Notes: generated by a model not told the origin, from the sequence alone. DNA of 33,374 nt from Bacilli bacterium (GCA_017463365.1 JAFTPH010000048.1:1-33374), one strand, 5' to 3'; shown: positions 1,582 through 10,467, counted from the first letter of the stretch. A program made the numbers and translations.

Positions 1582-2551
1582 TTATTTAAAGAGTGGATTA
1601 ATTATTATCTTTTGTTTAGAAATATTAGCTTATTTTATTTATATTCCTTTACTAAAGAAACAAAAAGTTAAACAAGCTGTAAGAGGCGATGGGCCGAAAA
1701 ATCATTTAAAAAAATCAGGTACCCCAACCATGGGAGGATTAATATTTGGAATATTTATAATATTAGGGTATATAGGAGGATTAAAATTATTAAATGTCCC
1801 AATTAATACTAAAACGACTCTAATAATTATGATTAGTTTAATTGGTTATGGTTTACTAGGTTTTATTGATGATTATCTAATTGTAGTAAAAAAGAATAAC
1901 TTAGGTTTAAAAGCAAATATTAAATTTATAATTCAACTTGTTTTAGCAAGTTTCATTTATTTAATCTTATTAATTAATCATCATCCTAGTACAATTAATA
2001 TCTTTGGATATATTATTGATTTATCATTTATGTATGGCGTATTTTTAATGTTTTTCTTTTCAGCAACCACTAATTCTGTTAATTTAAGTGATGGATTAGA
2101 TGGTCTTGCTAGTGGAATAATTGTAACAATTTTAATAGGTTGTATGTTTTTAGGATATTTTAAAAACAACACTGAAGTGGTAGTTTTATCACTTGTAAGC
2201 ATTGTATCTTTATTAGCATTTATGTTTTTCAATCTAAATCCGGCTAAAATATTTATGGGTAATGTTGGGTCAATGTTTTTAGGTGGTTTGCTTTCAATTA
2301 TCTTTGTGATTTTAGAATGTGAAATATTACTTATTGTAATGGGATTAATTTTAGTAATTGAAACATTAAGTGACATAATTCAAGTAACTTATTTTAAATA
2401 CAGTAAAGGTAAAAGAATATTTAAAATGGCCCCCATTCATCATCATTTAGAATTACTTGAATATTCTGAATGGCAGATCGATTTGATATTTTGGGCATTT
2501 AGTTTAGTTATGTCACTTTTAGGTGTTATTATGGGGGTGCAATTATTTTAA
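1574..2551 (+). CDS. mraY: Phospho-N-acetylmuramoyl-pentapeptide transferase (MraY)
   Basis: MraY is a polytopic membrane enzyme that moves phospho-MurNAc-pentapeptide from UDP to undecaprenyl phosphate, giving lipid I. Its 325 residues match the usual bacterial length. Visible family motifs are KKSGTPTMGG (46-55), the metal-binding Asp pair in GFIDDY (D99, D100), NLSDGLDGLASG (from about 168) and the histidine motif MAPIHHHLE (from about 285). The oddity is FMGNVGS: the family has FMGD-x-GS, and this Asp (D231 in Bacillus subtilis MraY) is one of three aspartates reported as needed for activity. Here residue 230 is Asn, codon AAT at 2261-2263, one base from GAT. Otherwise the gene looks intact. 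It overlaps murE by 8 bases and probably murD by a few. Confidence 0.95.
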   Translation: MFNYLKSGLIIIFCLEILAYFIYIPLLKKQKVKQAVRGDGPKNHLKKSGTPTMGGLIFGIFIILGYIGGLKLLNVPINTKTTLIIMISLIGYGLLGFIDDYLIVVKKNNLGLKANIKFIIQLVLASFIYLILLINHHPSTINIFGYIIDLSFMYGVFLMFFFSATTNSVNLSDGLDGLASGIIVTILIGCMFLGYFKNNTEVVVLSLVSIVSLLAFMFFNLNPAKIFMGNVGSMFLGGLLSIIFVILECEILLIVMGLILVIETLSDIIQVTYFKYSKGKRIFKMAPIHHHLELLEYSEWQIDLIFWAFSLVMSLLGVIMGVQLF

Positions 2552-3804
2552 ATAAAAAATATCTACTCTATGGAAATGGTTTAACTATTCAAAGTATCGA
2601 ACGTTTTTTTATCAAAAAAGAAGTCAAATACCAAATTGTTACATCTAATTATGAAAATATAAATTTATCAGATTTTGATATTGTTATTAAAAGTCCCGGA
2701 ATTCCTTATAATGATGATTTTATTATAAAATTAATTAAGAATAATAAATTGATTATTAGTGATTTAGAATTGTTTTATATCCTCTACCCTAATAGTAAAA
2801 TAATTGGGGTAACAGGAACAAATGGCAAAACAACTACGGTTTTGTTAATCAAAACGATTCTTGATACATTATACAAAGTACATTTAGGTGGTAATATTGG
2901 AATACCGTTATTTGATTTGATGAGTGAAGTAAATTTCGAGAATGAAATAATTTTGATTGAATGTTCAAGTTATATGTTAAAAGACACATATTTATTCCAT
3001 CCTAATATTTTTTTAGTAACTAATATTTATCCCAATCATTTAGATCATCACTTAAATTTTAAAGATTATGTTGAGGCTAAATTAAAAACAATTAAACGAA
3101 TGAAAAATAATGATATATTAATTTATCATCATGATTTAAAAGATTATCAGCAAATAACTGAATTTCAAGGGAATAAACAAGAAGTAGATGATAAAAATAA
3201 TAGGGTTTTAGAAATTAAAAATAATGATATATTTTATCAGGGGCATTTATTAAAATATTTAAAAGGTTATCACAATTTTATTAATTTAAAATTAGCTTTA
3301 GAGGTTGGTAAAGAATTTAAAATTAATTTAGATTCAATAATTGATAATTTAGTTAATTTTAAGGCACCAAGTTTTCGTTTAGAAAAAATATTTGATTCAG
3401 ATAAAGTAAAAATATATAATGATTCAAAATCAACCAATTTTTTATCGTTAATTAGATCGCTTGAATTTTTTAAAGATGATAAATCGTCAATTCATTTGAT
3501 ATTAGGCGGTTTAAAAAGAAAAGAAGATTGGTATGAATTAAAAAATTATTTGTGTAACTTAAAATGTGTTTATGTTTATGGAGAAAATAGATATGCTATT
3601 AAAAAAGTTTTAGATGAAAACAAACAAAAAAATTTTATATTTGAGACATTAGAAGAAACTATTAATGTGTTACAAATAAATAATAACGAAACAAATATTA
3701 TTCTATTTTCTCCTGGGGCTCCTAGTACCGATCAGTATAAAAATTATATTGAACGAGGTATTAAGTTTAATGAATATATTTTAAAAAAGGTAAGATTGAT
3801 TTAA
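2545..3804 (+). CDS. murD: UDP-N-acetylmuramoylalanine--D-glutamate ligase (MurD), probable ATT start
   Basis: MurD adds D-Glu to UDP-MurNAc-L-Ala. The P-loop is GVTGTNGKTT (residues 88-97 from 2545), and the C-terminal SPGAPSTDQYKNYIERG is the MurD version of SPAxASFDxFKNFEERG. The first conventional start, TTG at 2749, lies just before the P-loop and would delete the N-terminal Rossmann-like domain. The frame is open from 2503 and encodes a normal MurD N-terminus (LNKKYLLYGNGLTIQ, later DFDIVIKSPGIP), but has no ATG, GTG, TTG or CTG before 2749. The best start is ATT at 2545, five bases after the Shine-Dalgarno-like GGGGGTG (2533-2539); ATT at 2542 is the alternative. This gives 419 residues, a little short for MurD (about 450). 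The start overlaps the mraY stop. A missing base in the read is also possible. Confidence 0.88.
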   Translation: MLNKKYLLYGNGLTIQSIERFFIKKEVKYQIVTSNYENINLSDFDIVIKSPGIPYNDDFIIKLIKNNKLIISDLELFYILYPNSKIIGVTGTNGKTTTVLLIKTILDTLYKVHLGGNIGIPLFDLMSEVNFENEIILIECSSYMLKDTYLFHPNIFLVTNIYPNHLDHHLNFKDYVEAKLKTIKRMKNNDILIYHHDLKDYQQITEFQGNKQEVDDKNNRVLEIKNNDIFYQGHLLKYLKGYHNFINLKLALEVGKEFKINLDSIIDNLVNFKAPSFRLEKIFDSDKVKIYNDSKSTNFLSLIRSLEFFKDDKSSIHLILGGLKRKEDWYELKNYLCNLKCVYVYGENRYAIKKVLDENKQKNFIFETLEETINVLQINNNETNIILFSPGAPSTDQYKNYIERGIKFNEYILKKVRLI

Positions 3805-3831: not shown

Positions 3832-3871
3832 GATTTATGTGTTAAAATAAATAAGCGAAAGGATGATTGTT

Positions 3872-5695
3872 ATGAAAATTAAAGAATTAGCAGATTATTG
3901 TTTAAAATGTAAAAATCCTAACTGTGTAAAAGGATGTCCTCTTCATAATGACATCCCAACTATTATGGAATTAGTATCTAATGAACAATATGTAGAAGCT
4001 CATCAAGAACTTTTAAAAACCCAAGTTATTCCTGAATTATGTGGTTTATTATGTGCTCACGATCACCAATGTGAAGGAAAATGTGTTAGAGGAATAAAAG
4101 GTGATCCAGTTGAAATTGGTAATGTTGAATATCTACTAGGTTCAATGTATAAAAATAGTTATTTAGATAATTTAAGTGCTCCAAAGAAAGCTTTAGAACG
4201 TAAATCTGTTGTGATAGTGGGAGCTGGAATTACCGGAATAACAGCAAGCATTATCTTAGCTAGAGCTGGACTTGATGTAACTTTATTCGAAAAAGAAGAT
4301 CGAATTGGTGGTACTGTCGATAAATTTGTTCCAAATTTTAGACATTTGACTAGCGTCTTTACCGATTTTGAACGACATTTAAGAAAATTAAACGTTAATA
4401 TTTGTTTAGGTAAAGAACTAGGAAAAGATGTTACATATGAAGATTTAGAAAAATTTGATTATAAGATTATTGCTACTGGAGCGATGATTCCAACTAATAT
4501 TTGGAATGATCACTATCCATCATGTTTTTATGGTCTTGATATATTAAAAGATTTTAATAAAAACGAATGTACAATTAAAGGCAAAAACATTATTGTTTTA
4601 GGTGCTGGTAATGTCGCAATGGACGTTTCAAGAGCTTTAAAACGTTTAAAGAATAATGTCACAGTTGTTTACCGAAGAACTCTTGCTAATTCACCTGCAT
4701 CAATTCACGAAATTAATGCCGCTAAAAATGACAAAGTTAATTTTGTTGAATTATGGGCTCCAATAAAACCAATTGTTAAAAATGAAGTTTTAGTTGGTTT
4801 ACAAGTCCAAAAAATGCGTTTAGTAGATGATGAAAAAGGTGGACGTAAAAATGTTGTTCCAGTTGAAGGAGCAATTAGTATAATTCCTTGTGATACAATT
4901 GTCATCGCAACAGGCGCAAAAGCAGATAAAACATTTGTAAATAAATATCATATTGATACGAAGAAGAATAGCTATTTAACTTATTATTTTGGTGGAGATT
5001 TTTATACTGGGCCTAAAACAATCGTTGAAGCTATTAAATCTGGTAAAGATATTTCTAATACAATTATTGAAAAAATCAATAAACTTTATCGTTTAAAAGA
5101 TACTATTAAAGATAGTAAAAAGAAGGTCTTTTTTGGCGGATCATTTAATCCTCCAACTATTGCCCATTATAACATTTTAAAACTTTTATCTAATGATTTA
5201 AATGCTAACGTATTGCTTGTCCCTAATGGTGATGATTATCATTACCATAATAAAGAATTACTTACATTTGATCATCGAGTTGAAATGTTAAAATTGATGA
5301 CTAAAGATCTAAAAAATATTGAGATTATAACAAGTGAACAAAATAAAGCCTTTAAAGGCAGCGTTGAAACACTTAAAGAATATAATCATCCATGGTTTGT
5401 AATAGGAGCTGATTCTTTAGCTTATATTACTACTTGGATTGATGCGAAAAAACTAATTCGTCAAAATCGTTTTATTGTTTTAAATCGTGAAGGTTTCGAT
5501 ATTGATTCTATATTCCAAAATGATCGTTTACTTACTTTATACCGTCATCATTTTACAATTATTGATTTTGAATTAGGAGACGTTTCATCTAGTAATTTTA
5601 GATCTACATTTGATGAATCTTTAGTTACTAAAGAAGTTTATAATTATATTATTAATAATAATTTATACAAGGAGGATCAAGATGAACAAGAATAA
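3872..5695 (+). CDS. nadD: Fusion: GltD-like Fe-S/FAD oxidoreductase + nicotinate-nucleotide adenylyltransferase (NadD)
   Basis: This is one 607-residue frame with two enzymes. Residues 1 to about 415 resemble the glutamate synthase small subunit (GltD) family. Eight cysteines (C10, C13, C18, C22, C57, C61, C67, C71) fit two 4Fe-4S clusters; GAGITG (117-122) fits FAD binding and GAGNVAMD (near 245) NAD(P)H binding. Residues from about 416 are NadD, which adenylates nicotinate mononucleotide: GGSFNPPTIAH replaces the usual GGSFDPPHxGH, and VSSSNFR replaces ISSTxxR. No start codon or ribosome binding site precedes the NadD part, so it is made only as a fusion. ATG 3872 was chosen because AAAGGA lies 8 bases upstream; ATG 3863 overlaps that site. 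The gene overlaps nadE by 14 bases. No GltB lies in the window. The electron acceptor is unknown. Confidence 0.9.
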   Translation: MKIKELADYCLKCKNPNCVKGCPLHNDIPTIMELVSNEQYVEAHQELLKTQVIPELCGLLCAHDHQCEGKCVRGIKGDPVEIGNVEYLLGSMYKNSYLDNLSAPKKALERKSVVIVGAGITGITASIILARAGLDVTLFEKEDRIGGTVDKFVPNFRHLTSVFTDFERHLRKLNVNICLGKELGKDVTYEDLEKFDYKIIATGAMIPTNIWNDHYPSCFYGLDILKDFNKNECTIKGKNIIVLGAGNVAMDVSRALKRLKNNVTVVYRRTLANSPASIHEINAAKNDKVNFVELWAPIKPIVKNEVLVGLQVQKMRLVDDEKGGRKNVVPVEGAISIIPCDTIVIATGAKADKTFVNKYHIDTKKNSYLTYYFGGDFYTGPKTIVEAIKSGKDISNTIIEKINKLYRLKDTIKDSKKKVFFGGSFNPPTIAHYNILKLLSNDLNANVLLVPNGDDYHYHNKELLTFDHRVEMLKLMTKDLKNIEIITSEQNKAFKGSVETLKEYNHPWFVIGADSLAYITTWIDAKKLIRQNRFIVLNREGFDIDSIFQNDRLLTLYRHHFTIIDFELGDVSSSNFRSTFDESLVTKEVYNYIINNNLYKEDQDEQE

Positions 5696-7517
5696 ATTTG
5701 TTAAAGTTGGTCTAGTTGTTCCTAAAATTAAACTTGGGGATGCATATTCAAATGCGATTGAAATTGTTAAAATAATTGAAAAAGATAAGAAAAATGCGAT
5801 ATTATTATTTCCAGAATTAACAATTACGGGTTATAGTTTAGGTGATTGGATTTTTAATCGCCAAGTATTAGAAGATGCAAAACTCGCTTTAAAATATATT
5901 TTAGAACATAACGATAATCATTTAATTATTATAGGTTCAGTTTTAGAATTTAATGGTTCTTTATTTGATGTTGCTTATGTTATTCAAGGAAATGATATTT
6001 TAGGAATTGTTCCAAAATATAATTTAAAACGCCATCGCGATTCAAACGAGCCACGCTATTTTAATAGTGGAGCTTGTATTGGATATGAAGAAACTGTTGA
6101 AATAGAAATATTTGATCAAACAGTGCCATTTGGGTCAATGCTTTTCAAGAGTGAAAATGGTGATGTAACATTTGGAGTAGAAATTGGTTGTGATAACCAA
6201 GATGTTCCACCCGTAAATAATTTATTATACCGAAATGGAGCCGAAATTGTTTTCAATTTATCTAGTTCTGCATATAACATCAAAAAGAATGCTAAACTTG
6301 TAAACTTATGTTCAGCAGCAAGCTTAAATGGTTTTGGAGCTTATGTTTACACTTCAACAGGTGTAAGTGAAACAAGTAGTGATGTCTTATTTGATGGTGA
6401 ACAAATTGTATGTTGTAATGGAGAAGTATTACTAAACCAAAATAATTTAGATAACTATAATAGTAAAATTAGTTATGCGGATATCGATTTAGAAGTAATT
6501 AAATATAATCGCTTAATAAGTGGGAATATGTGTTCTAATGATTTACTAGTTTCTGTGTTTGATGATATCTTATATGAAGATTATCATTTAGATTTAGAAT
6601 ATAATAATGCACCATTCATCACAAACGAAGAAGAATCAGATGAAATATTAAAAGTTGTAAGTAATGCCTTATATAATCGTTTAACTTATAGTAAAGCTAA
6701 AGGATTAGTTATTGGTATTAGTGGCGGGCTTGATTCAACTCTTGCTTTATTAATGGCGGTTTACATGTGTGATCGTTTTAATTTAAATCGTAAAATGATT
6801 CATGGTATTACAATGCCTGCGATGGGAACAAGTAGTAAAAGTAAAGATCGTTCAATTAATTTAATGAAAAAATTAGAAATTGATGATCATATTATGGATG
6901 TAAATCTTGAAGTTGGACATCATTTAGATTTAATTGGTCATGATGGGTTAACTAAAGATATTGCTTATGAAAATTCACAAGCTCGATATCGTACTCTTGT
7001 ATTAATGAATTTTGCAAACGCAAATAGTAGTTTAGTTGTTGGTACAGGAGATATGAGTGAAATAGCTTTAGGTTTTGCGACCTTCAATGGTGATCATATG
7101 GCAATGTATAACGTTAATTCAGGAATTCCTAAAACAGCCATTCGTCATTTAACTAGACATTTTATTAAATACTATCCCGAAGTAGCTGAAGAACTTGAAG
7201 ATGTATGTAACGCTATGATTAGTCCTGAACTTGTAAGTAGTGCTCAATCTACTGAAGATTTCTTAGGCAAATATGAAATAAATGACTTTATTTTATATGA
7301 GTTACTAGCAAATGGTTCAAGTAAAGAACGTTTAGTTTTCTTAATGATGGAAGTCTTTAAATTAAATGAAAGTGATGCTGAAACGTATTATGATCGTTTC
7401 TTACGCCGTTTTAAAGCCCAACAATATAAACGTTTAACTGGTCCGGAAGGTATAAAAGTATTCGAAGTTTCTTTATCAGCAAGAAGCGAACTTAAGATGC
7501 CTGGAGACTTATATTAA
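5682..7517 (+). CDS. nadE: Glutamine-dependent NAD+ synthetase (NadE)
   Basis: NadE amidates nicotinic acid adenine dinucleotide to NAD, the step after NadD, using ATP and ammonia released from glutamine. The 611 residues show the two-domain form. The N-terminal nitrilase-type glutaminase has a likely Glu-Lys-Cys triad at E45 (FPELTITGYS), K112 (VPKYNLKRH) and C170 (GVEIGCDNQD). The C-terminal synthetase has the PP-loop SGGLDS at 347-352 and GTGDMSEIALGFATFNGD further on. ATG 5682 lies behind AAGGAGG (5670-5676), inside the end of the GltD-NadD gene. The overlap and consecutive pathway steps argue for coupled expression. No terminator is seen before the valS promoter. Confidence 0.95.
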   Translation: MNKNKFVKVGLVVPKIKLGDAYSNAIEIVKIIEKDKKNAILLFPELTITGYSLGDWIFNRQVLEDAKLALKYILEHNDNHLIIIGSVLEFNGSLFDVAYVIQGNDILGIVPKYNLKRHRDSNEPRYFNSGACIGYEETVEIEIFDQTVPFGSMLFKSENGDVTFGVEIGCDNQDVPPVNNLLYRNGAEIVFNLSSSAYNIKKNAKLVNLCSAASLNGFGAYVYTSTGVSETSSDVLFDGEQIVCCNGEVLLNQNNLDNYNSKISYADIDLEVIKYNRLISGNMCSNDLLVSVFDDILYEDYHLDLEYNNAPFITNEEESDEILKVVSNALYNRLTYSKAKGLVIGISGGLDSTLALLMAVYMCDRFNLNRKMIHGITMPAMGTSSKSKDRSINLMKKLEIDDHIMDVNLEVGHHLDLIGHDGLTKDIAYENSQARYRTLVLMNFANANSSLVVGTGDMSEIALGFATFNGDHMAMYNVNSGIPKTAIRHLTRHFIKYYPEVAEELEDVCNAMISPELVSSAQSTEDFLGKYEINDFILYELLANGSSKERLVFLMMEVFKLNESDAETYYDRFLRRFKAQQYKRLTGPEGIKVFEVSLSARSELKMPGDLY

Positions 7518-7558: not shown

Positions 7559-7576
7559 ATCACTGATATTAAAATC

Positions 7577-7818
7577 TAAGAAGAGGAAGAGTAAATTTAT
7601 TAAACTTTTTAGAGAAAGACTGGTTGGTGAAAAGTCTTAAGTTTTTAAATTGAAGGTAGCCTTGGAGATGCCTTAGGGAAATAGTAGTACTTAAGTGCCG
7701 TTCATCAGCGTTAATGATTAATGAAGGGTAAATAGATTTTCTATTTAAACTAAGGTGGTACCGCGAAATTTTCGTCCTTAGAAATGTAACGTAATGTTAT
7801 ATTTTTAAGGACTTTTTT
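7577..7818 (+). ncRNA. T-box leader of valS (specifier GTA, Val), with terminator
   Basis: Stem I contains AGAGA, then GACT-GGTTGGTGAAA-AGTC, the GGTGAA-type apical motif. The likely specifier is GTA (7656-7658) in GAAGGTAGCCTTGGAG, a valine codon that fits the downstream gene. AAATAG-ATTTT-CTATTT near 7731-7747 looks like stem III. The T-box AAGGTGGTACCGCG is at 7752-7765; its TGGT fits an ACCA tRNA end. CCTTAG after it can close the antiterminator. The competing terminator is GTCCTTA (7774-7780) with TAAGGAC (7806-7812) followed by TTTTTT. Uncharged tRNA-Val should favour readthrough into valS and folC. The 7518-7836 gap holds only this leader and its promoter. Confidence 0.95.
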
Positions 7819-7836: not shown

Positions 7837-10467
7837 ATGATTGATAAAAAAGAATTAGGAGCTAAATATAATCATCATGAAGTTGAAAAAGGAAAATATG
7901 ATTATTGGTTAAAAAATGGCTTCTTTACCGCAGGAGACAAAAATAAAATCCCATACACTATTGTAATTCCTCCCCCAAATGTAACAGGTAAATTACACTT
8001 AGGACATGCTTGGGATACAACATTACAAGATATTTTAATTCGTCGTAAACGTATGCAAGGTTATGATGCTTTATGGCTTCCAGGTATGGACCATGCAGGT
8101 ATCGCTACTCAAGCAAAAGTTGATGCGAAATTACGTGAACAAGGAATTAGTAGATATGATTTAGGACGTGAAAAATTTTTAGAAGTCGCTTGGGATTGGA
8201 AACATGAATATGCTCATTATATTCGTGATCAATGGGCTGCTTTAGGTCTTTCACTTGATTACACTAAAGAACGCTTCACATTAGACGATGGATTACAAAA
8301 AGCTGTTCAAACTGTATTCATTACTTTATATAATGAAGGATTATTATATCGTGGTGAAAAAATCATCAACTGGGACGTTCAAGCTAAAACTGCTTTATCA
8401 AACGTTGAAGTAGAATATAAAGATATTGAAGGCGCATTCTATCACTTTATTTATCCATTTGTTGATGGAAATGGCGGATTAGAGATTGCGACTACAAGAC
8501 CAGAAACAATGTTTGGGGATAGTGCTTTAATGGTTCATCCAGATGATGAAAGATATCAAGCTTATATTGGGAAAGAAGTATTTATTCCGGGAACTGACCG
8601 TAAAATTCCGGTTATTAGCGATGAATATGTTGAAATTGAATTTGGAACAGGGGTTGTTAAAGTAACACCAGCCCATGACCCTAATGACTTTGAAGTAGGT
8701 AATCGTCATAACTTACCACGTTTAATTTGTATGAATGAAGATGGTACAATGAATGAACTTGCTGGAAAATATACCGGAATGGATCGTTTTGAATGTCGTA
8801 AAGCAGTCGTTAAAGATTTAACAGATGCTGGACTATGTCCACAAATTGAAAAAATGATTCACTCTGTTGGACACTCAGAACGTACTGGTGTAGTTGTTGA
8901 ACCTCGTTTATCAAAACAATGGTTTGTTAAAATGAAACCACTAGCAGATGATGTTGTAGCAATGCAAAAAAGTGAAGAAGCCATCGAATTCGTTCCAAGT
9001 CGTTTTAATAAAACATTAATTCAATGGTTCGATGTAGATGATGTACAAGACTGGTGTATTAGCCGTCAATTATGGTGGGGACATCGAATTCCTGCTTGGT
9101 ATAATGGCGATGAAATTTATGTTGGTGAATCAGCCCCAGATGGTGATGGATGGGTACAAGACGAAGACGTTTTAGATACTTGGTTCTCAAGTGCTTTATG
9201 GCCTTTCTCAACTCTTGGATGGCCAGAATCTACTGAATTATTAGATAGATATTATCCAACTGATTGTTTAGTAACTGGTTATGACATTATTACATTCTGG
9301 GTATCTAGAATGGCATTACAAGGTCGTCATTTCACTAAAAAGCGTCCATTTAAGAAATGTTTCATCCATGGTTTAATTCGTGATGAACTAGGTCGTAAAA
9401 TGAGTAAATCATTAGGTAATGGGGTAGATCCATTCGACTTAATCGAAGAATATGGATGTGACGCAATGCGTTATTTCTTAACAACTAATGCTACTCCAGG
9501 TCAAGATTTAACTTATTCTAAAGAAAAAATGGCTTCATCTTGGAACTATATTAATAAAATTTGGAATATCTCTAGATTTATTTCAATGAATCTTAAAAAT
9601 AATAATTATCAAAATGAAGAAATTGATTATAACAATTTAACTTCAATTGATAAATGGATTTTAGAAAAAGCTAATAATTTAATTGTAGCTGTAGATAAAT
9701 TATATGAAGATTACGAGTTAGGAGAAGTAGCAAGATTAATTTATAACTTTACATGGAATGATTTTGCTTCTTGGTATATTGAATTAACTAAAGTTTCTTT
9801 AAATAATCCAAAATATGCCATTAACACTTGTGCAGTTTTAAAACATGTTTTAATTATTATCTTAAAATTATTACATCCATTTATGCCATTCGTAACTGAA
9901 GAGATTTATCAAAATTTCTGTGATGGTTCAATTATGGTTTCAGATTGGCCAGTAGCATGCAACTTAGAAGTAGAAGCAAACTTAATTAAAGACGTTGAAA
10001 AATTATTAAACATCATTACTGCAGTTCGTAACATTAGAGCCGAAAAGAATGTTGCGCCAAGCAAAAAAATCAGTATTGGTTTAGAAACAAATAATACTTT
10101 ATATCAAGAATTCTTAAAAGCTCATGAAGATTATTTACAACGCTTCTTAAATTATGAAGAATTAACAATTAACAATGAAATTTCTCATGATCGTGCAACA
10201 ATTGTAGTTGTAAATGATATCAATGTTATTGTTCCATTAAAAGAATTAATTAACTTTGAAGAAGAAAAAATTCGTTTAACTAAAGAATTAGAACGTTTAA
10301 ACAATGAAGTAAAACGTTCTGAAAATATGTTAAATAATCAATCATTTATTTCAAAAGCTCCTGCTCAAAAAGTAGAAGCAGAAAAAGCTAAACTTGTTGA
10401 ATATCAAAATCAATTACAAGAAGTTAAAAATTTATTAAAAGATATCGAGATGAATCAAAATGCCTAA
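7837..10467 (+). CDS. valS: Valyl-tRNA synthetase (ValRS)
   Basis: ValRS charges tRNA-Val. The 876 residues match the class Ia enzyme. PPNVTGKLHLGHAW carries the HIGH signature as HLGH (54-57), ATTRPETMFGDSA lies in the CP1 editing domain, WWGHRIPAWY in the catalytic core, and KMSKS at 521-525. The end is the Lys/Glu-rich coiled coil typical of ValRS (from about 805). ATG 7837 follows AAAGGAG. Expression is controlled by the T-box upstream. The gene overlaps folC by 8 bases (ATGCCTAA), the same pairing seen in Bacillus. Confidence 0.97.
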   Translation: MIDKKELGAKYNHHEVEKGKYDYWLKNGFFTAGDKNKIPYTIVIPPPNVTGKLHLGHAWDTTLQDILIRRKRMQGYDALWLPGMDHAGIATQAKVDAKLREQGISRYDLGREKFLEVAWDWKHEYAHYIRDQWAALGLSLDYTKERFTLDDGLQKAVQTVFITLYNEGLLYRGEKIINWDVQAKTALSNVEVEYKDIEGAFYHFIYPFVDGNGGLEIATTRPETMFGDSALMVHPDDERYQAYIGKEVFIPGTDRKIPVISDEYVEIEFGTGVVKVTPAHDPNDFEVGNRHNLPRLICMNEDGTMNELAGKYTGMDRFECRKAVVKDLTDAGLCPQIEKMIHSVGHSERTGVVVEPRLSKQWFVKMKPLADDVVAMQKSEEAIEFVPSRFNKTLIQWFDVDDVQDWCISRQLWWGHRIPAWYNGDEIYVGESAPDGDGWVQDEDVLDTWFSSALWPFSTLGWPESTELLDRYYPTDCLVTGYDIITFWVSRMALQGRHFTKKRPFKKCFIHGLIRDELGRKMSKSLGNGVDPFDLIEEYGCDAMRYFLTTNATPGQDLTYSKEKMASSWNYINKIWNISRFISMNLKNNNYQNEEIDYNNLTSIDKWILEKANNLIVAVDKLYEDYELGEVARLIYNFTWNDFASWYIELTKVSLNNPKYAINTCAVLKHVLIIILKLLHPFMPFVTEEIYQNFCDGSIMVSDWPVACNLEVEANLIKDVEKLLNIITAVRNIRAEKNVAPSKKISIGLETNNTLYQEFLKAHEDYLQRFLNYEELTINNEISHDRATIVVVNDINVIVPLKELINFEEEKIRLTKELERLNNEVKRSENMLNNQSFISKAPAQKVEAEKAKLVEYQNQLQEVKNLLKDIEMNQNA

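Follow-up and report, generated by a model that had tools for sequence, protein, structure and literature searches.

GltD-like modules, exemplified by the β subunit of glutamate synthase (GOGAT), the N-terminal domain of DPD, and AegA, combine an N-terminal domain carrying two [4Fe-4S] clusters with a pair of Rossmann domains for FAD and NADPH, and are used as plug-in units of larger enzymes, where they supply a second protein or domain with electrons from NAD(P)H by way of low-potential clusters (PMC8097209). A cluster ligand set of three Cys residues and a Gln or Glu has been described for DPD and glutamate synthase, and Nfn-II has been found to act as a simple NADPH:Fd reductase (PMC8097209). 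With respect to NAD synthesis, NadD is fused to a second enzyme domain in the NadD–YqeK proteins of mycoplasmas (PRK07152; PMC9426524), and NadE is regulated by PII, a partner protein that ties NAD synthesis to a metabolic signal (PMC7196632).

The protein described here differs from each of these systems. It is encoded in a 33,374-nucleotide stretch of DNA from a Bacilli bacterium (the window, corresponding to contig C31 of genome G000, which comprises 1.74 Mb in 65 contigs and is 97.4% complete), and joins a GltD-like module to NadD. Compared with other GltD-like modules, that of the window is shorter (405 aa), and its fused partner is an adenylyltransferase without a redox center. Whereas YqeK is a C-terminal HD hydrolase, the window protein has an N-terminal redox module, and Pfam detected no HD (YqeK) domain in its 610 aa. 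The signal conveyed by PII is the C/N status at NadE, not redox state at NadD. All of the component families are known; their pairing, for which the initial annotation knew of no precedent, matched no description in the open-access papers searched, where its occurrence in four genera, in fused form or as adjacent genes, likewise appears to be undescribed.

The fusion gene and its neighbors

The fusion gene lies on the plus strand in an uninterrupted open reading frame at 3863–5695 (610 aa). The frame is open from an ATG at 3863, and the ATG at 3872 is the better-placed start, having a better-spaced GAAAGGA ahead of it; counted from there, the gene spans 3872–5695 and encodes 607 aa. Residues 1–405 match GltD-like Fe–S flavoproteins and residues 420–605 match NadD. 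Specifically, Pfam places Fer4_20 at residues 7–91 (3881–4135; PF14691, 83 bits), Pyr_redox_2 at 196–370 and CTP_transf_like/NadD at 423–580, all above gathering scores. A linker of ~14 residues (5078–5119), which is ~12 residues shorter in the fusions of genus g6, leads into the NadD domain (5120–5677). The nadE gene (5682–7517, plus strand) shares 14 bases with the end of the fusion gene. Its product is a glutamine-dependent NAD synthase of full length, scoring 481 bits on NF002730 (cut-off 473), in which both the nitrilase and the NAD_synthase domains were found. Both the domain identities initially assigned (a GltD-like Fe–S flavin module, a complete NadD and NadE) and the single frame with its 14-base overlap were thus borne out. 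A single-sequence structure prediction of the fusion protein, made without an alignment, had a pLDDT of 34.5, too low to be of use, and a search of genome contigs with the fusion as the single query protein returned one match, weak and unrelated.

The gene order in the window is murE-mraY-murD-[fusion]-nadE-(T-box)-valS, with murD (2749–3804) and valS (7837–10467), both on the plus strand, serving as conserved anchors of the locus. The T-box leader ahead of valS lies at 7569–7782 (RF00230, 150.7 bits). As for murD, its frame (2503–3804) is open upstream of the first ATG, GTG or TTG codon (2749), encodes the missing N-terminal part and overlaps the end of mraY; translation probably starts at a rare codon such as ATT near 2542–2548.

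The C-terminal half of the fusion scores above the PF01467 gathering threshold and carries the active-site motifs of a nucleotidyltransferase of this kind, GGSFNPPTIAH (residues 425–435) and the SSxxFR-type VSSSNFR (574–580); the former and VSS(S/T)xFR are kept by NadD in every fusion. Its TIGR00482 score of 103.1 bits is below the curated cut-off of 112.45 bits, which is also missed by 59 of the 318 NadD-bearing genomes of the class, and TIGR00482 is still its best nucleotidyltransferase family, with no competing annotation. Three PF01467 matches occur in the source genome, and since the other two are CoaD (contig C52) and RibF (contig C5, between truB and rpsO), the fusion is the only NadD found there; the separate nadD that had been envisaged as speaking against a functional fusion did not emerge from this whole-genome family search. 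Moreover, ATG, GTG and TTG are absent from the 60 codons preceding the NadD motif, so that NadD can only be made as a fusion, as initially proposed, and this fused form is likewise the only one producible in G010 and G012. Judged by these motif and family matches, the cell has no NadD other than the C-terminal half of the fusion.

The redox module and its relatives

Conservation within the module was assessed across eight modules of 34–37% identity. Seven Cys residues (13, 16, 21, 25, 64, 70 and 74) are invariant, and an eighth ligand position near residue 89 is occupied by Glu, or by Cys in g6. The eight Cys residues counted in the initial annotation are present, but the conserved set is the seven Cys plus this Glu/Cys; Cys60 is not conserved, being Thr in one relative. 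This arrangement, four Cys for one [4Fe-4S] cluster and three Cys plus Glu/Gln for the other, is the one known from DPD and glutamate synthase. Also invariant are the glycines of the FAD-binding GxGxxG motif (GAGITG, residues 120–125; 4220–4237) and, in the predicted NADP(H)-binding site (4601–4678), the GxGNxA motif (GAGNVA, 247–252) and the Tyr-Arg-Arg of VYRR (269–272), whose Arg pair we take to signify NADP(H) specificity. Pairwise dN/dS ranges from 0.13 to 0.38 for the module and from 0.07 to 0.36 for NadD. The module evolves faster than NadD but is under purifying selection, and hence is not decaying; together with the invariant cofactor residues, these values indicate that it is kept as a redox protein. 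On the strength of its ligands for two [4Fe-4S] clusters and its FAD and NAD(P) motifs, the module is a GltD-like Fe–S flavoprotein in the broad sense of that class.

The designation GltD-like holds as a statement of homology, but not as assignment to glutamate synthase. The module has the domain pair by which GltD is defined (Fer4_20 and a pyridine nucleotide–disulphide oxidoreductase domain), and its scores against the GltD profiles are 210 bits for TIGR01316 and 196 bits for TIGR01318, below the NCBI cut-offs of 472 and 483 bits; the NCBI equivalog cut-offs for GltA/GltD/YgfK/AegA are not reached. GltB (PF01645) is absent from 14 of the 15 family genomes, the remaining one (G002) giving only a 20.5-bit fragment of 91 positions. 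A role as the GOGAT small subunit was therefore rejected, as the large subunit was not found in the family, and "GltD" serves here as a homology label only.

NfnB is among the best solved relatives of the module (5jca_L, 4ylf_B) and shares its ligands, and Nfn occurs in the sister family f2. In contrast to Nfn, however, the window module has no NfnA in its own genome, falls outside the Nfn clade and is missing ~30 residues of insertions. Specifically, the sole match to NfnA (PF10418) in the source genome is PyrK of the pyr operon, and the PF10418 matches of G000, G008, G010 and G012, the fusion-bearing genomes in which these loci were opened (that of G011 was not), are all PyrK in carAB-pyrK-pyrD-pyrF-pyrE operons. 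With no NfnA found and these matches accounted for by PyrK, assignment as an Nfn subunit was rejected. At all seven f2 loci opened and in G013, NfnA adjoins NfnB, and none of these has the nadD-linked module. In a 52-sequence tree, the modules of f1 form a clade of their own (100/98), apart from both the Nfn clade (100/99) and a clade whose members are associated with operons for chorismate biosynthesis. Both Nfn and the module are lacking in G009, another genome of the family, indicating that the function of the module is dispensable in the wider family.

Outside the family, the nearest relatives of the module are partnerless GltD-like proteins of 400–430 aa from the same class (best match 332 bits), which have no adjoining NfnA or GltB; class-wide, module match scores of 547–618 bits inside the family drop to 333 outside it. 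Unlike the module, these proteins are not nadD-linked at the loci opened, where their gene neighborhoods include aro, polC-rnc and lon, among others. Their separate clades and varied surroundings indicate that partnerless GltD-like proteins are common in the class and that their partners vary. In family f21, a standalone GltD-like gene of ~420 aa closes the order aroB-aroA-chorismate mutase-aroE-aroC (L120:474-5920, L121, L124, L125, L128, L136, L177), and its product is a candidate supplier of reduced flavin to chorismate synthase. Orphan GltD-like genes of family f19 adjoin a chorismate-mutase-like gene (L123, L127, L135).

Distribution and history of the locus

Among the 15 genomes sampled from family f1, the fusion is found in four besides the source genome, which belongs to genus g1: G008 (g4) and G010, G011 and G012 (g6). 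It always stands at murD-X-valS, and the four further proteins show 38–40% overall identity to the window protein. The initial annotation had counted absence from all relatives, or reads showing a frameshift between the two parts, against the fusion. The former does not apply, and the same continuous frame in G008, G010, G011 and G012 speaks against an assembly frameshift, which was rejected as the explanation. The fusion is genuine and is maintained by selection. No module–NadD fusion was found outside f1 in 395 genomes of the class and 392 of the phylum, so that recurrence, which the annotation had proposed to survey, is confined in this sample to three genera of one family. Among the best matches listed in the NadD survey of the class, only NadD-sized frames or frames of 340–480 aa were seen. 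Those of 340–400 aa are, judged by size, probably NadD–YqeK fusions, which are thus probably widespread in the class.

Genus g2 (G001, G003 and G005) presents a second arrangement, in which the module is a separate gene of 411–412 aa that overlaps a NadD–NadE fusion of 799–802 aa; a covalent join between module and NadD is hence not essential. The genes for these NadD–NadE fusions (L039:4634-7042, L040:4219-6627, L041:3955-6354) immediately follow that for the unfused GltD-like protein. In G006 (g3) and G009 (g5), nadD-nadE is present without the module. In the outgroup family f2, nadD and nadE are unfused; valS lies nearby in both of the loci opened, and in G016 the pair stands downstream of mraY-murD. 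From these module-free loci, the ancestral order was probably murD-nadD-nadE-valS. Comparison of gene orders further places the entry of the module within f1, followed by rearrangement into at least two fusion types. The fusion may have arisen on two occasions, or on a single one and then been split in g2; trees of ValS, of five genes, of NadD and of the module disagree at weak nodes on this history.

The tight coupling to nadE proposed for the window holds there but is lost in g4 and g6, where the fusion no longer adjoins nadE; the complete members of these genera (G008, G010 and G011) have a short, ammonia-type NadE of ~250 aa elsewhere in the genome. NadE coupling is therefore not a constant feature of the fusion, and redox activation of the NadE glutaminase was rejected as a general role, given that these genomes keep the fusion with a short NadE. 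In terms of NAD precursors, the fusion-bearing genera (g1, g4 and g6) have nicotinate phosphoribosyltransferase (NAPRTase) and lack NadA, and probably depend on niacin salvage for that reason; g2 has NadA and no NAPRTase, and both enzymes occur in g3 and g5. Within f1, then, the precursor route and the architecture of the locus vary together. A role for the module in feeding the Fe–S enzyme NadA was rejected, since no fusion-bearing genome has NadA, which does occur in g2, g3 and g5. In G002 and G013, which are 95–96% complete, NadD was undetectable and no clear NadE match was found, and these may be NAD auxotrophs or cases of assembly gaps. In G013 (L188), the genes upstream of valS are arranged differently, and a genuine NfnA–NfnB pair is retained.

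Possible roles of the fusion

We tentatively favor, while regarding it as far from settled, the reading that the fusion is a lineage-specific protein with two activities, an NADP(H):low-potential-carrier oxidoreductase and NadD, tied to the NAD operon and standing in for Nfn. The NadD half would adenylate NaMN to NaAD, which NadE, encoded by the next gene, would amidate to NAD. The N-terminal half, as a partnerless relative of NfnB and GltD, would transfer hydride from NADPH onto FAD and hand on single electrons, via the two [4Fe-4S] clusters, to a soluble carrier of low potential, most likely ferredoxin, or would run in reverse and make NADPH from reduced ferredoxin. The module would in this way take the place of the Nfn complex kept by close relatives, and its insertion beside nadD and subsequent fusion would have united NAD synthesis on one polypeptide with electron flow linked to NADP(H). 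NADPH as substrate, the acceptor, the direction and any effect between the halves are all inferred. The source genome encodes pyruvate:ferredoxin oxidoreductase and NuoEFG/HydB-like subunits, and for this reason the organism is probably a ferredoxin-based anaerobe; no small ferredoxin was seen in 1.29 Mb of the 1.74 Mb genome (~74%). Against the two-activity reading, no acceptor emerged from that part of the genome, the family is small (eight modules), G009 does without both Nfn and the module, and NadD has no redox center, unlike the partners of GltD-like modules described previously (PMC8097209).

Alternatively, as initially suggested, the FAD/Fe–S module could be a redox sensor: in response to the NADPH/NADP+ ratio or to oxidation state, it would adjust NadD allosterically and make NAD production follow the redox state. 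The covalent join is consistent with such a role, as is the very short linker of g6, in which the C-terminal helix of the module runs into strand 1 of NadD, and NadD is always fused in G000, G010 and G012. Regulated NAD synthesis also has precedents, in that PII relieves NAD+ inhibition of NadE-Gln, the glutaminase domain of which needs reducing conditions; the same study, however, found NadE activity to be unaffected by NADP(H) (PMC7196632). A further precedent is the policing of NadD by a fused domain, YqeK (PMC9426524). Sensing is possible but, on balance, unlikely, as the module is unfused from NadD in g2, and as the electron-transfer ligands are all conserved, those of the exit cluster included, which is more readily explained by turnover than by sensing. 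A particular form of coupling, in which a module poised by NADPH or ferredoxin gates NAD supply by setting NadD activity through direct domain contact, we consider decidedly unlikely.

It is also rather unlikely that adjacent genes of two unrelated enzymes were simply joined in a compact genome, with no functional link between them. A different fusion (NadD–NadE in g2) did arise at the same locus, orphan GltD-like genes occur in many unrelated operons of the class, and the faster evolution of the module would fit such an origin. Yet four genera separated by deep divergence keep the join or tight adjacency, the linkers are short and selection is purifying, and the fusion is retained even where nadE has left the locus.

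It is improbable that the module reduces or oxidizes a pyridine nucleotide, damaged or otherwise abnormal, that NadD produces or receives. We know of no GltD-like module that acts on damaged nucleotides; such modules oxidize NAD(P)H and pass the electrons on, and the sequence suggests no substrate. The comparison is nonetheless prompted by YqeK, a quality-control enzyme that proofreads NadD in mycoplasmas (PMC9426524), and by the resemblance in size of the 340–400 aa NadD frames of the class to NadD–YqeK. Finally, by analogy with the aro-operon genes, the module might donate electrons in trans to chorismate synthase or another flavin enzyme, but this is highly improbable: although an orphan GltD-like gene ends the aroB-aroA-CM-aroE-aroC operons of f21 and aroC is present in 15 of 15 family genomes, the f1 modules and the aro-linked proteins are separate clades, G009 has aroC but no GltD-like protein, and the aro operons of f1 lack the module.

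These observations draw attention to the large set of partnerless GltD-like flavoenzymes without assigned function in the class. Little is known of the means by which bacteria adjust their NAD(P) pool to redox demand. The NadD locus has been rearranged in at least two ways, as redox module–NadD and as NadD–NadE with the redox module next door, which suggests that NAD synthesis is organized here as a physical unit that includes a redox component, and because the fusion is a single, soluble and expressible protein, any link between redox state and NAD synthesis is directly testable.
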